Assembly: GCA_938001915.1 (NCBI GenBank)
Contig: CALLBD010000023.1
Span: forward strand, 1 to 51,236
DNA: 51,236 bases
DNA from: an uncultured Caulobacterales bacterium
GTDB lineage: Bacteria > Pseudomonadota > Alphaproteobacteria > Caulobacterales > Maricaulaceae
Direction of reading: 5' to 3'
Below, in pieces: positions 1 through 48,698 of the stretch. A program made the translations under genes and the position numbers. Numbering within the stretch: position 1 is the first letter of the stretch; each line of letters begins with the position of its first letter. Below the pieces are notes generated by a model. That model was given only the letters and a program-made list of their open reading frames with translations. It did not search any database and was not told the origin of the DNA.

Positions 1-116
1 GCAGGATCCGCTTGGGCTGCAATCCGCGCATAATAAGTTGATGGGGCAATCGGCAGAACTCTGCAGATAGGCTCGACCCCGTACTGATCACGATGCGCTG
101 TGATGAAAGCAATCAT
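1..116 (-). CDS. IS3-family transposase OrfB, N-terminal fragment (runs off window)
   Basis: Reading the minus strand from the ATG at 116 gives [20 protein letters not shown] and then [16 protein letters not shown]. This is the characteristic start of IS3-family OrfB, the part before the DDE integrase core. The ATG overlaps a TGA in the ancestral OrfA frame as ATGA, the usual coupling arrangement. The catalytic DDE region lies outside the window, so activity cannot be judged. Confidence 0.82.
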
Positions 117-480
117 CTCTTGAATGGGCGGTCGAGCTCCGTCCCATTGCCCGGCAGGCAATTGCGCAGCAAATGCCGAGAGGAGGTGCGAAATATGCCG
201 AGGCCTTACGCAGGATCTCATTGGCTTGTCGCAGTTCTTTGTTCTCGCGCTCCAAGGCCTTCAACTTGGCGGCCGCATCTGTCGTCACGCCCGGTCTACC
301 GCCATCATCAATCTCGGCTCGCTTAATCCAATTGTGAAGCGTCTGCGTTGCACATCCAATCTTGGGCGCAATGGACTCAATCGCTGTCCATCGGGACGTA
401 TGCTCGCCCTGATGCTCCATCACCATCCGAACGGCCCGCGCGCGCACCTCAGGTGAAAATCTGTTCCTCGTATTGCTCAT
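88..480 (-). CDS. IS3-family transposase OrfA, altered C-terminus
   Basis: This is the 130-aa small ORF of an IS3-type transposase. The N-terminal half is a helix-turn-helix that binds the IS ends ([13 protein letters not shown], then [12 protein letters not shown]). It is followed by a leucine-zipper-like coiled coil around residues 70-93 ([20 protein letters not shown]). Up to KASAYFA it looks normal. The family usually continues with about a dozen residues ending near ELDRPFKR and a stop that overlaps the OrfB start. Here those codons are present at 113-140 but in a different frame. They are separated from KASAYFA by about 41-46 extra bases, so the protein ends in an unrelated 30-residue tail. 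This may be an inactivating insertion or an unusual frameshift region. Confidence 0.85.
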
Positions 481-7187: not shown

Positions 7188-7640
7188 TTACGCTTTTCTA
7201 TTTGCTTCTTGCTTAGCCCGCCTTAGTGCTCTTTTATTGACATATGGCCTGAGGTCACCGGCTCCCATCCCATTTGGCGAAAGCAGTATTGAACCCGGCG
7301 AGGCTTCAGCAATCGCCATCTCAATTTTTTCCCACCAATACACACAGTATGACATTTGATAATTCCTACCAGCTTGAGAAAACTTAGATGGCAGATAAAT
7401 AGCAATTAGCCCTTTTTGAGAAATCTGACTAACAAGCGCCTCTCTGTCTAGCATGGCTCTATCGCCAGAAATAATTGCATTCCCGCCTGTTCGGGCAAAT
7501 GTCGCTATCCAGTCCTCGTCTGCACGACCATTTAAATTTGCGGACCTAACGGTATCGAATTGCCAGTTGGGGCTAAGAAAATTCTCAGCAATTTGCCGTA
7601 CAATCTTAGGCGAAATCATTTCGTCAGCGATAATCCTCAA
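7188..7640 (-). CDS. PIN-like toxin of a type II toxin-antitoxin pair (VapC45/DUF5615-like)
   Basis: The 150-aa protein begins with IIADEMISPKIVRQIAENF, resembling PIN-like DUF5615/VapC45 toxins in which an early Asp is a metal ligand. Further acidic positions occur in RADEDWIATFAR and IISGDRAMLDRE. The family acts as a ribonuclease (established knowledge). Its start overlaps the stop of the upstream DUF433 gene by four bases (ATGA), the usual antitoxin-first arrangement. It is richer in A+T than the flanking genes. The exact family assignment is from motif layout only. Confidence 0.72.
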   Translation of the reverse strand: MRIIADEMISPKIVRQIAENFLSPNWQFDTVRSANLNGRADEDWIATFARTGGNAIISGDRAMLDREALVSQISQKGLIAIYLPSKFSQAGRNYQMSYCVYWWEKIEMAIAEASPGSILLSPNGMGAGDLRPYVNKRALRRAKQEANRKA

Positions 7641-8335
7641 CCATCTAACCTAAGCTCAAAGTCCACGGCCTCTCGAACGAATTCTTCTTCGACTTCATAC
7701 CAATCAGCAGCAGCGGCATAACTAAAAGCCTCAGCTTTGCAGATACCAAATAAGGCTTTAGTGGGAATCTTTATTGGCTCAATACTTGGTTGTCCGTGAG
7801 CTATACGAGGGTCAACGATAACATGTGGGTTGTCATTGGGTTCAGGCCGCCAGTTTTTTGCAAGCCCACTCGTCGGGTCAAACACAACACCCTGAGCTAG
7901 AAAGTCTTCCACAACTTCATAAAAAGACATTTGTCCAGTCAGCATATCTTCTAGTGAAGTATCGTTTTCTTCTCTGCTTACCTCACTAAATATTGACTTA
8001 CGGTCAGTTTTAAATTTGACGTTTGAAAGCGCGAATGGATGTTCTGTATCGAGCCGCTCTCTTGCCTTTGCAGCAATCTTCCTCAAGTTTTGAAGACTAA
8101 TGTTTTGTTTTCTGAAATAAGCAACAAATCGGATTTCCATTAAATCCCAAAAACCGACATCCCGTGTTTCTTTATATTGCTTTACAAGTGTGGGGCTAAA
8201 ATTACCGTGCCCCAGCCAACGATGCACCATTGTTGAGCTACTAAGGCCAAGTAAACGACTTGCCTCAGAAGCGGTATAAAACCCGCCCACTAACGGTTTT
8301 GCCGTATTTATGTCGGTTGTCGCGACGTTCATCAT
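7637..8335 (-). CDS. Antitoxin with N-terminal HTH and C-terminal DUF433 domain
   Basis: Of 232 residues, the N-terminal part (YTASEASRLLGLSSSTMVHR) is a MerR-like helix-turn-helix. The C-terminal part (VIVDPRIAHGQPSIEPIKIP to EEEFVREAVDFELRL) has the DUF433 pattern found in antitoxins paired with PIN-like toxins. It should bind DNA to autorepress the operon and bind the toxin. It overlaps the toxin gene by four bases. The AT-rich 220 bp upstream (8336-8558) is the likely promoter/operator region; no distinct operator palindrome was recognised there. Confidence 0.75.
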   Translation of the reverse strand: MMNVATTDINTAKPLVGGFYTASEASRLLGLSSSTMVHRWLGHGNFSPTLVKQYKETRDVGFWDLMEIRFVAYFRKQNISLQNLRKIAAKARERLDTEHPFALSNVKFKTDRKSIFSEVSREENDTSLEDMLTGQMSFYEVVEDFLAQGVVFDPTSGLAKNWRPEPNDNPHVIVDPRIAHGQPSIEPIKIPTKALFGICKAEAFSYAAAADWYEVEEEFVREAVDFELRLDG

Positions 8336-8558
8336 AGTAGATTCTTATATGTTGCCATCAAAATATGCCACCGAAAAAAGTTTAAAGTCCTTTAAGGTTG
8401 TAGAAAAATCCAGGATTGATGTAGGATTTTAAGTGGCTCAAGCTACACACATAAACACTTGCCTGCGATGCCTTGAACGTCCTCTCATGCCGTTCCACAT
8501 TTCAATACGTCGGGAACCCCATAAAACCGCTGTTTCAAAAAACATAATCCTCACATTC

Positions 8559-8907
8559 AAAACCCGTGTCACACTAAACGGGTTCTTTCGAACATAGGAC
8601 AGGTGAGACGTCGCTTACTGGTTCGGGAGACGGTGGGTCTGAGCGACTGATAGTGACTTATCAGTAGGTGCCGGGACTTTAGGAGTGAGAGCCGATGCCT
8701 GGGGCCAGAGTTGCCTCAACTGGTAGGACAGACGGGCCGCTTCTTCAAAAACCATCGCCGCGTGGTTTGTGTATTCGTCTTACAATCGGATATACGGTCT
8801 TTGCGTAAAACACTTTTTTCTTTTTCGGTACTCCATCGTGAGGACCGACCACGCGGGCAGTCCTAACTTCCCGACTATGAGACTTCGGCAGACACTTAGA
8901 TTGTCTG
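8559..8907 (+). ncRNA. Candidate structured RNA / mobile element, copy A
   Basis: This non-coding stretch is homologous, block by block, to the inverted copy B at 26929-27370. The 5' block 8559-8604 matches B at 38 of 46 positions. Stems: AACCCG/CGGGTT (8561-8566 with 8579-8584, loop holding TGTCACAC), GTCGCTTA/TGAGCGAC (8610-8617 with 8640-8647), CTGAT/ATCAG (8647-8651 with 8660-8664), and CCGCGTGGT/ACCACGCGG (8758-8766 with 8848-8856). The 3' block 8849-8893 is almost identical to B. A hairpin CAGACA/TGTCTG (8889-8907) closes it. It fills most of the 589-bp gap between the antitoxin and the DoxX-like gene. The architecture recalls HEARO/omega-RNA or an IS200/IS605-type end, but no covariance search was run. 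Confidence 0.6.
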
Positions 8908-8924
8908 TGAGCTTATCCGCTTGC

Positions 8925-9308
8925 CTACACCTTCTCTGGCCGTGTGGCCCAATAGATAATCGCAATCAGCGGGAATTGTAGCGCGACTCTTATCCAGAGC
9001 GCGGCGGGACTGGCGGCCGTATCGCCAAAGGGAATACCCGCCATCGCCATGTAAATATTTGCGGGTAAGACCGCCAATAGAAAGAGACCCAAAATGATGC
9101 CCACACGCGGACGGAAATGCGGACAGAGCAACATCACCCCCATCGCAATTTCCATAAGACCCGTCACCCACACAATGAGTTTTGGGAACGGCAGACCCGG
9201 CGGAACGATGGCGGCGAAATCGTCAACGGCGACAAAATGCATGACGCCCGCCGCCACAAAGAACAGACAGAAAAAGACGCATAGCCCGTGTTTGATTACC
9301 CTCACCAT
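8925..9308 (-). CDS. DoxX-like family membrane protein
   Basis: This 127-aa protein has four predicted membrane helices: residues ~8-25, ~43-62, ~68-88 and ~104-121. The layout and motifs (FVAAGVMHFV, PFPKLIVWVTGLMEIAMGV, LLAVLPANIYMA) fit the DoxX/DoxX-like family of small four-helix inner-membrane proteins of unclear function. Its 3' end lies about 18 bases from the closing hairpin of structured element A, so the two are tail to tail. The short divergent spacer to argF (9309-9401) should hold both promoters. Confidence 0.83.
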   Translation of the reverse strand: MVRVIKHGLCVFFCLFFVAAGVMHFVAVDDFAAIVPPGLPFPKLIVWVTGLMEIAMGVMLLCPHFRPRVGIILGLFLLAVLPANIYMAMAGIPFGDTAASPAALWIRVALQFPLIAIIYWATRPEKV

Positions 9309-26715: not shown

Positions 26716-26902
26716 TTGCATCGCCCTCGCCATTTGCGTGGGGCTGGTCCTGCTCGGCTTTCGCCAGAACTTCAAAGAGAAAACAGAATTTCGCCGCTTC
26801 CGTGTCCCGTGGATGGGCATTGCCCTAACGGCGATAAGCGTCGGCTTCATGATACTCGTCCATATTGCGAACCTCTTCGGATTTGAAACAGGCCGACGAT
26901 AA
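26687..26902 (+). CDS. Small two-helix membrane protein
   Basis: The 71-aa protein has two membrane helices (residues ~8-25 and ~43-66) and a basic loop between them (RQNFKEKTEFRRFRV). It overlaps the end of the glycosyltransferase gene by 29 bases in another frame, suggesting translational coupling and a possible accessory role. No family was recognised. Its 3' end lies about 27 bp from the closing hairpin of structured element B. Confidence 0.65.
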   Translation: MSHSDDLLISCIALAICVGLVLLGFRQNFKEKTEFRRFRVPWMGIALTAISVGFMILVHIANLFGFETGRR

Positions 26903-26928
26903 GGCGTGCGGAAGCGCTTGCAGCCCGT

Positions 26929-27370
26929 GTTGAAACTTTGGTTTCAACTAGGAGTCTGCCGGAATCTCATAGTCGGGAAGTTAGGACTGCCCGCGTGGCG
27001 GCCCCCGCGATGGAGACCAGAATAAAGTTTTGTTTTACGCGAGTTTCACCACGCGGCAGCAGTTTTTGATGCAACGGTTGGGGGTCCCACAGTTGATCCG
27101 TTCCGGTCATGCAAATCGTGATATCTCATCATCTGGTTAGGATGATTTGATATACCTATTTCGAATGTTTCCTACCATTCAAAATAAGCCCCATCTTGCG
27201 ATGGTCACGAAAGCCCCGGCTAACGCCCAGTGGTCAACTCTCGCCGCAAAAGGTCCGGCACACACTCAGCTCTCACACCAAGCCGCTCAACCCTACCGTC
27301 TCTCGGTCCAGAAGGTGAGCTCCTACCTGTCCTATGACCAAAAGAACGCGCCTAGTGTGACATAGGTTTT
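26929..27370 (-). ncRNA. Candidate structured RNA / mobile element, copy B
   Basis: Inverted relative of copy A at 8559-8907. Read on the minus strand from 27370 it has stem CCTA/TAGG around TGTCACAC (27351-27366), stem GCTCA/TGAGC (27285-27289 with 27316-27320) and inner hairpin ACCG-AGAGA-CGGT (27295-27307). A hairpin CCATC-GCAA-GATGG has a GNRA loop, and the closing stem pairs 27048-27056 with 26991-26998. The near-identical 3' block is 26954-26998. A perfect eight-base-pair hairpin, GTTGAAAC/GTTTCAAC (26929-26948), ends it. B carries about 100 bp more than A, including a long imperfect hairpin (GATATCTCATCATC with GATGATTTGATATA). It fills the first part of the 720-bp gap 26903-27622; REP-like units fill the rest. 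Confidence 0.6.
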
Positions 27371-27460
27371 GGAAGTGTGGATACGATTGTCTAAATGCGT
27401 TGTTTTATTTGGAAAAAATAGGGACGAAAATCGGGATTAAATCACACTGTTTCCCTCGCT

Positions 27461-27539
27461 CCGTCACCCTCGGCCTCCGAGCCGAGGGTCCATGTTGGAA
27501 ATGCGAGATAGACCCTCGGGTCAAGCCCGAGGGTAACGG
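27461..27539. repeat. Paired REP-like palindromes, locus 2
   Basis: Two facing palindromic units. 27461-27491 has stem ACCCTCGGC/GCCGAGGGT. 27511-27539 has stem ACCCTCGGG/CCCGAGGGT. The spacer is about 19 bases. The head-to-head design and GTCA/GTTA outer ends match loci 1 and 3. It lies between structured element B and the AT-rich membrane gene. Confidence 0.83.
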
Positions 27540-27622
27540 TAAAGGAAAAAAACCTCCGAACCTAAAATATTTAAAAGACGTCAGACACCTTCTGTGATAG
27601 TATAGCAGGTAGGAGAAAAATA

Positions 27623-48622: not shown

Positions 48623-48698
48623 GCCCCTATAGCTCAGCTGGTAGAGCACCTGATTTGTAATCAGGGGGTCCGCGGTTCAAGTCCGTGTGGGGGCACCA
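48623..48698 (+). tRNA. tRNA-Thr (TGT anticodon)
   Basis: 76 bases including an encoded CCA. Acceptor GCCCCTA pairs with TGGGGGC (one G-U), the D arm holds AGCTCAGCTGGTAGAGC, the anticodon arm CCTGA-TTTGTAA-TCAGG reads TGT, and the T arm has GGTTCAAGTCC. Its 3' end points at the integrase gene, making it the likely integration site. Confidence 0.96.

Follow-up and report, generated by a model that had tools for sequence, protein, structure and literature searches.

In the window analysed here, a stretch of 51,236 nucleotides, two elements, A and B, resemble each other in opposite orientations, and the question that this locus raises is what their likeness reflects. The original prediction regarded B as an inverted copy of A located 18 kb away, and attributed the pattern to selection on the structure of RNA or single-stranded DNA rather than to a decayed gene. 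Copy B is real, and selection on structure, as opposed to gene decay, is strongly supported by the covariation described below; between the two molecules, the asymmetry of G-U to A-C cells decides for RNA and against single-stranded DNA. What the description of a single inverted copy missed is that A and B belong to a dispersed family of 38 copies, that there is a promoter-like block, and that a protein gene is linked to some copies.

Several particulars of the comparison between A and B held. The 46 bases at the 5' side contain the 38 identities that had been counted, the 3' block at 8849-8893, described as nearly identical, agrees at 43 of its 45 positions, and our alignment also places the blocks in the same order in both elements. 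Likewise, a protein gene is absent from both, in that no ORF of at least 100 aa overlaps A or B and no MPR gene (see below) follows either of them. Other particulars did not hold. The AGAGAC motif, given as part of a hairpin common to both elements, occurs in B only, A having GGAGAC. Furthermore, the two helices in which pairing had been thought to survive sequence change were dropped, because neither pairs above the shuffled level: CCCG/CGGG in A versus CCTA/TAGG in B, which overlaps the promoter-like block, has a fraction of 0.506 of its cells paired over 88 copies versus 0.501 after shuffling, and GTCGCTTA/TGAGCGAC in A is 64.9% paired over 21 copies versus 64.8%. The boundaries were redrawn as well. 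The RNA corresponds to approximately 8580-8867 (+) in A and to 27349-26980 (-) in B, and outside these limits lie the promoter-like block upstream and tail hairpins downstream.

Fold and covariation of the RNA

A blastn search with A against its own genome, at E values up to 10, returned 65 pieces that were grouped by hand into 40 places, including A and B, and these 40 loci were aligned. The structure of the 5' domain was drawn from 21 own-genome copies aligned by sequence alone, and constitutes covariance model R1. Both A (8580..8697, +; 124.2 bits, E 4.3e-29) and B (27232..27349, -; 121 bits) are among the training copies. In A, the helices of this domain are P1 (8584-8593/8621-8630), P2 (8603-8607/8614-8618), P3 (8637-8640/8674-8677) and P4 (8643-8652/8659-8671). 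Over the 21 copies, 97.7% of the cells are paired and 19 of the 29 pairs change on both sides, giving a covariation score of 0.594 versus 0.282 for shuffled and at most 0.168 for slid alignments. An extended set of 97 copies, 70 of them from genomes outside the model building, was aligned by fitting to the model; here, 98.0% of the cells are paired, 23 of the 29 pairs are double-changed, and the score of 0.606 (versus 0.255 shuffled and at most 0.158 slid) was reached by 0 of 500 shuffles.

The 3' domain (model R2) spans 8741..8867 (+) in A, with 88.5 bits, and 26980..27073 (-) in B, where it includes the pseudoknot and, at 99.9 bits, has the top R2 score; both are training copies. It contains helix P7 (8758-8765/8849-8856 in A), which covaries, and a pseudoknot helix, and over the 97 copies 97.9% of the cells of these two helices are paired, with 11 of the 14 pairs double-changed. 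The pseudoknot is formed by the loop of hairpin P8, which pairs with an upstream GCG and leaves an A-rich linker; the pairing, which covariation supports, is of 8803-8805 with 8837-8839 in A, and the linker there is 8806-8813. P8 itself (8827-8833/8840-8846, with one mismatch in A) was found by inspection and by a stem search run without a control, in which 63 of 97 rows had 7-10 pairs, six had 6, 22 had 4-5 and six had none. Among copies it is written in varied letters, such as GGTATTC/GAATATC and GGTCTCC/GGGGGCC.

Two further helices connect distant parts of the molecule. The 5' strand of the long-range helix P0 lies at 8631..8635 (+) in A and its partner at 8753-8757. In the 84 copies with both domains aligned, 99.8% of the P0 cells are paired, although shuffles already reach 95.4%, and double-change cells number 18 versus 6.8 shuffled; in 57 outside copies the excess is small (4 versus 1.2). 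A possible end-joining helix, P9, would pair GGAC (8597..8600, + in A) with GTCC (8860-8863), both mostly invariant. All four of its pairs are kept in 95 of 103 anchored copies, a count that the search pattern itself favours, whereas 18 of 121 copies could not be anchored. In this count, as in the palindrome, DnaA-box, CCCG/CGGG and MPR-downstream counts, L084 and L102 were dropped because they are the same places as L152 and L153. Folding of single sequences sets A only weakly apart from its shuffles (z -1.64, equalled by 6 of 100) and B clearly (z -4.39, equalled by 0 of 100). The core measures 311-493 nt in 21 copies.

Judged from covariation, the RNA has a 5' domain made up of helices P1-P4, which a long-range helix connects to a 3' domain with a pseudoknot. 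In the 70 copies from outside the training genome, 1521 cells are Watson-Crick, 459 are G-U, only 7 are A-C and 33 are of other kinds. Since G-U is common and A-C nearly absent, the selected molecule is the RNA of one strand, and it is almost certain from these alignments that A and B belong to an RNA family with a selected structure. The alternative named with the original prediction, that of a decayed or chance repeat, is refuted by the covariation; the switching palindromes and the 38 matches in the own genome also speak against it, so that its probability is close to nil.

Upstream block and variable parts

Upstream of the RNA, and always equally far from it, the majority of copies have a conserved block. 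In A it lies at 8472..8579 (+), with TCC boxes at 8480-8482 and 8548-8550 and a -10-like region at about 8570-8575; in B it is placed at 27350..27457 (-) by its position relative to the RNA start. Information profiles aligned on that start in four genomes rise from a mean of 0.00-0.05 bits at -160..-116 to one of 0.37-1.24 bits at -108..-1. TCC is located at -32 in 15 of 16, 20 of 20 and 11 of 12 copies of genomes G055, G056 and G045, and at -32 or -33 in 28 of 31 copies of the own genome (G000) and 7 of 8 of G060. In a low-copy set, mostly from other genera, TCC lies exactly 22 nt before the best -10-like hexamer in 15 of 31 copies, which corresponds to a 17-base spacer; the hexamer is usually TATATT or TATAGT, and matches TATAAT at five of six positions in 17 of the 31. 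Such a five-of-six match is found in 24 of 88 copies of the multi-copy set (genus g1) versus about 11% of shuffles, a comparison in which the shuffles scanned 12 offsets and the data 16. The duplicates L084 and L102 were kept in these hexamer counts. The -35-like box is ATCC, not TTGACA, and a scan with general consensus sequences detected neither a sigma-70 promoter on the + strand nor a terminator at A. Transcription is likely to start from this block.

DnaA boxes were considered for this block and rejected: in 72 of the 83 copies whose TCC lies at -32, the box ends in G instead of A. DnaA-like boxes with at most two mismatches do occur at a rate of 0.32 in copies versus 0.02 in background, and DnaA is left as an idea. 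The TGATCC core of the block resembles the Caulobacter G-box described in PMC4285127. Next to the block of B, at window positions 27460-27550, lie REP-like palindromes of the form CCTCGGG...CCCGAGG, which also adjoin several other copies.

Optional arms and several tail types vary among copies; in G060, for instance, two copies are nearly identical on either side of a differing 3' module. In A, tail hairpins recognised by inspection and by the blast coverage of the copies occupy 8868..8926 (+), the end not being fixed precisely, and in B the tail, with hairpin GTTGAAACCAAAGTTTCAAC, occupies 26900..26979 (-). One kind of tail, GCGGGTTGCCGCCnGCCAACCCAACCCGC, whose outer stem varies, is present in copies from G000, G056, G019, G022 and G098 and thereby in more than one genus; it may be a terminator or a binding site. 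In four copies of genus g7 (L079, L080, L082 and L100), inspection showed that an additional 5' hairpin separates P1 from the promoter-like block; the predicted transcript of that genus thus seems to have gained a domain. A smaller palindromic element at L042:1034-1236 and L044:1003-1197 has the 3' GCGGGCAGTCCT end in common with the large RNA and lacks an R2 match; it is possibly a related, shorter RNA.

The position of the copies with respect to genes bears on whether the structure could serve its neighbours, as a cis-acting leader, terminator or single-stranded DNA structure. The sampled copies are indeed intergenic. However, a simple ORF heuristic applied to 80 copies gave neighbour orientations of ++ in 31, -- in 16, -+ in 16 and +- in 14, without any fixed orientation, and the RNA has its own upstream block. 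In addition, the near absence of A-C cells indicates that neither DNA nor the other strand is selected, and we consider a role in cis very improbable.

Distribution and possible movement of the copies

The search for further copies with a covariance model, proposed along with the original prediction, was productive, and the added sequences keep the covariation. Model R1 with deeper scoring found 38 matches in the own genome, including C10:3104 and C6:58554 that blastn had missed, 43 in Litorimonas cladophorae (G045, 100% complete), 52 in G056, 44 in G055 and 11-37 in each of eight other genomes, so that the 12 carriers counted in depth span 11-52. Six genomes of the same genus have none, and counts among the 18 genomes thus run from 0 to 52; the six genomes without R1 imply that the RNA family is not essential in the clade. 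Across the family, R1 is present in 29 of 137 genomes (own included) and 5 of 19 genera. Across the order, R2 is found in 17 of 398 genomes, all of the same family; newly found in this way were genus g3 and a single match in G051, which has no R1. Across the class, the own genome stands alone among 385 sampled alphaproteobacteria. When more than 40 genomes were searched, filtering was stricter and the number of candidates scored in each was low (26 for R1 in the family, 10 for R2 in the order, 9 for R1 in the class), so weak copies may have been missed. Named genomes were also scanned with a pattern, and the 23 stretches obtained come from Caulobacterales MAGs, an unclassified MAG and Litorimonas cladophorae, a member of the Robiginitomaculaceae. 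As judged by these sequence searches, the RNA family is so far confined to one family of marine alphaproteobacteria.

The Infernal comparison proposed as a check found no known family for A and its copies: Rfam gave no match to this RNA at gathering in the window, up to E 10 for A, or up to E 1 for 15 copies. Literature searches, covering titles, abstract openings and passages of PMC11109978 and PMC12373285, returned no description of it, and the family is apparently undescribed so far. Two other features of the window do correspond to known ones. A tRNA-Thr (TGT) gene is located at 48623-48698 (+). An ALIL pseudoknot (RF01497, 80 bits), which is a frameshift signal of IS3-family elements, is located at 42-160 (-), and there is probably an insertion sequence at the window edge.

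How did so many copies arise? One possibility is that they are mobile elements, RNA plus MPR being autonomous and RNA-only copies non-autonomous, in which the RNA would serve movement, as guide, scaffold or intermediate, and not the host. We regard this as the strongest rival to the explanation favoured below, while holding it to be rather unlikely. The range of copy number, from 0 to 52, is in its favour, as is the location of A. A is in a stretch private to its own genome, with no R1 match in 18 loci of relatives; six of these genomes show both genes flanking A on one locus, and several other loci show argF only. Also in the stretch with A, and missing from the six relatives with both flanks, is a gene for a PIN-like toxin (PF18478, over cut-off) with a weakly matching MerR/DUF433-like partner (below cut-off), at 7188-8335 (-), right beside A. 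Furthermore, two copies in G098 whose flanks are unrelated agree at every position over about 370 bp, a block of RNA and ORF has been duplicated in G060, and at one intergenic site the element is on the other side or flipped between species (L021 versus L122 and L145).

Other observations argue against movement as the purpose of the RNA. No target duplication or terminal inverted repeat was seen in the two pairs inspected, one of which is the G098 pair. The copies are mostly structurally intact, R2 being present in 36 of 39 blast-chosen own-genome loci. At a few sites the copy persists between species and both flanks match, namely L011/L113 and, in three species, L045/L134/L165; about 20 further pairs match on one flank. 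As for a moving enzyme, the reverse transcriptase domain PF00078 occurs in 6 of the 18 genomes of the genus, that is, in 4 of 12 R1 carriers and 2 of 6 non-carriers; as it is found in a minority of carriers and is absent from G045 and G000, a reverse-transcriptase-driven, SINE-like element was rejected. TnpB was rejected too, its domain (PF07282) occurring in 0 of the 18 genomes and in 6 of 14 control genomes. IscB was set aside provisionally: its RRXRR domain (PF14239) occurs in 0 of the 18, but no control genome gave a match either. The MPR protein has no catalytic family match, bar one weak match to a PHROG named transposase (33 aa, E 1.3e-4, in one member). As for an associated transposase or integrase, clusters of ORFs flanking the copies, grouped irrespective of function, hold at most three loci in one count and four in another. 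A phage or plasmid origin was rejected, there being no DNA match to A and no protein match for one MPR protein; the 3'-domain pattern had 0 matches in viral contigs, a viral protein scan gave none that could be confirmed, and A had no blastn match in a phage collection.

Known multi-copy elements resemble this family in part. HEARO and the omega RNAs of IscB, IsrB and TnpB are likewise structured RNAs of about 350 nt in many copies, some with an adjoining ORF; the present family differs in having no HEARO match, no TnpB domain, no IscB domain (controls silent) and a small protein predicted to be helical. Kinship with group II introns or retrons finds no support, as there is no Rfam intron match and reverse transcriptase is missing in most carriers of the genus. 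BOX-type repeat units are short. With BOX and with the mobile or repeat candidates of a survey of ncRNAs in 50 genomes (PMC11109978, where the example described is a single long stem), the family has in common dozens of structured copies and inconsistent gene orientation, but its RNA has several domains and a pseudoknot, is preceded by a promoter-like block and is linked in some copies to a protein.

Copies within one genome may also exchange sequence. Of 24 flank-sharing pairs, 22 were long enough for scoring, the majority of them with just one flank in common; 3 of the 22 are in the top 5% of cross-species pairs by similarity, such orthologous pairs being mostly no more alike than other cross-species pairs. 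Identity within the genome is clearly above that across species in G055 and G045 and barely so in G056 (0.783 versus 0.773 and 0.753), the copies of these three having been taken from the top of the R1 ranking, whereas in G000 it is below (0.644 versus 0.666-0.670). High-identity tracts begin and end within the RNA. These patterns are suggestive of gene conversion among copies of one genome, which is not proven.

The palindromic loop, the MPR protein and possible functions

A strict 6-mer palindrome is present in the P2 apical loop of 99 of the 120 copies that could be anchored; shuffling the letters gives a fraction of 0.19, and windows elsewhere in these RNAs give 0.10. Ten palindromes are found: GACGTC, GAGCTC, AGCGCT (in a separate loop count, seen in three G045 copies), AGGCCT, ACGCGT, GATATC, GGCGCC, CGATCG, GTCGAC and GTGCAC. 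Allowing G-U pairs makes 16 further copies self-complementary, 115 of 120 in total, in a weaker test in which shuffles reach 0.63; of the last five, three (L166-168) were cut short by the search window. L107 was wrongly anchored, and L139, being unanchored, is outside the 120. Several palindrome classes coexist within one genome. Because a palindromic loop is unable to pair with itself within one molecule, its natural reading is a kissing-loop homodimer, and self-pairing through the P2 loop is likely. The loops of A (GACGTC, 8607..8612, +) and B (GAGCTC, 27317..27322, -) should then each pair with their own kind and not with the other.

This interpretation has precedents. The Nature 2025 ornate-RNA paper (PMC12286853) takes palindrome switching in OLE and GOLLD as evidence of intermolecular pairing, identifies the palindromic loop of OLE as a dimer contact in its cryo-EM structure, and describes GOLLD and ROOL as homo-oligomeric large RNAs with symmetric kissing loops. 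Like OLE, which has partner proteins, the present RNA is a large bacterial RNA with a letter-switching self-complementary loop and a possible partner protein; unlike OLE, it has no Rfam match, other hosts, 11-52 dispersed copies in the deeply counted carriers and an unrelated small helical protein. With GOLLD and ROOL it has in common the symmetric kissing loops, predicted here from sequence alone, and it differs from them in its lack of an Rfam match and in the absence of A from the phage collection and of the 3'-domain pattern from viral contigs.

Downstream of some RNA copies, in the same orientation, lies a small ORF whose product starts with MPR and has a common N-terminal helix. When the 137 family genomes were searched with a profile, 19 of them gave 31 matches, 1-3 each, and 18 of these 19 are among the 29 R1-positive genomes (P 4e-14). 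Litorimonas cladophorae has such a gene at G045 C1:1439135. Without the seed genomes P is 8e-8, a value that counts G053 as new although the L195 MAG of the profile is possibly the same genome; dropping G053 gives about 5e-7. At 26 of 30 fetched loci the RNA 3' domain lies directly upstream on the same strand, in 25 together with the 5' domain. Three of the four exceptions are cut by contig edges, and the fourth is an orphan MPR-like open frame in G117 (L251, C55:11932-12102) that has neither an ATG nor an upstream RNA and is probably a remnant. The MPR ORF of G114 also lacks an ATG at the usual place. Conversely, MPR comes next in only 10 of the 115 sampled RNA copies with enough downstream sequence, and 11 of the 29 R1-positive genomes, among them the near-complete G098, G014 and G050, gave no match to it; MPR may be dispensable, missed or cargo. 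In eight of nine MPR pairs dN/dS is 0.06-0.22, several with dS >1.5, the ninth being saturated, and by this measure the protein is under purifying selection.

Searches with seven, four or five MPR proteins and with the profile against Pfam, NCBIfam, PADLOC and PDB gave no match of weight and no catalytic family (nothing over cut-off in Pfam for seven proteins, nothing at E 1 in PADLOC for five). A low-confidence single-sequence structure model is helical (H13-43, H86-106 and H114-160; pLDDT 72.7, pTM 0.26). Its adjacency to the RNA and this model make it plausible, with the scales evenly balanced, that MPR is a partner of the RNA acting in trans, and RNA binding by MPR is inferred on the same basis.

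The arrangement of RNA and MPR gene also invites comparison with toxin-antitoxin systems. According to PMC12373285, type III toxin-antitoxin systems and AbiF-RCd22 have an RNA gene directly upstream of the protein gene, as is the case at the 26 MPR loci. The RNA might accordingly neutralise MPR, solitary RNAs being surviving antitoxins, and the pseudoknotted structure, the small same-strand protein and the patchy distribution would fit. However, TRF found 0 tandem RNA repeats in A and only a CTTT run in L099, MPR has no toxin family match and nothing in PADLOC (five proteins), its low-confidence helical model has no enzyme fold, and dozens of RNAs are solitary. We consider this explanation quite improbable.

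The explanation that we favour, by a modest degree of confidence, is that a dispersed and partly mobile gene family encodes a functional dimeric RNA-protein particle. A and B would be copies of a large structured non-coding RNA gene, transcribed from the upstream block with its start at P1. Two RNAs of the same loop type would dimerise through the palindromic P2 loop, and the all-helical MPR, encoded after a few copies, would bind the RNA in trans to give the dimeric particle, whose dosage would come from the many RNA genes. Copies within a genome would exchange sequence, whole arms included, by recombination, and the unit would also reach new sites. Two observations incline us towards a functional particle: the structure of most copies is intact, and some sites are kept from one species to another. 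A bolder version, which we put forward tentatively, is a dispersed network of 40-50 self-recognising RNA genes whose RNAs pair only within their own loop type, swap arms and form with MPR a homo-oligomeric particle unlike described systems, possibly joining distant loci through nascent RNAs.

A pseudoknotted RNA family with up to 52 copies in a small genome, and with its own promoter-like block, appears to be unrecorded. If our reading is true, it would be one of the rare large RNAs of bacteria whose sequences speak strongly for self-pairing. Self-recognition is open to direct testing, as one genome contains several loop palindromes. Since Litorimonas cladophorae, a culture-collection strain, has 43 copies, experiments are practical. 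The family may also offer a natural example of dispersed RNA genes that swap arms and evolve in concert.
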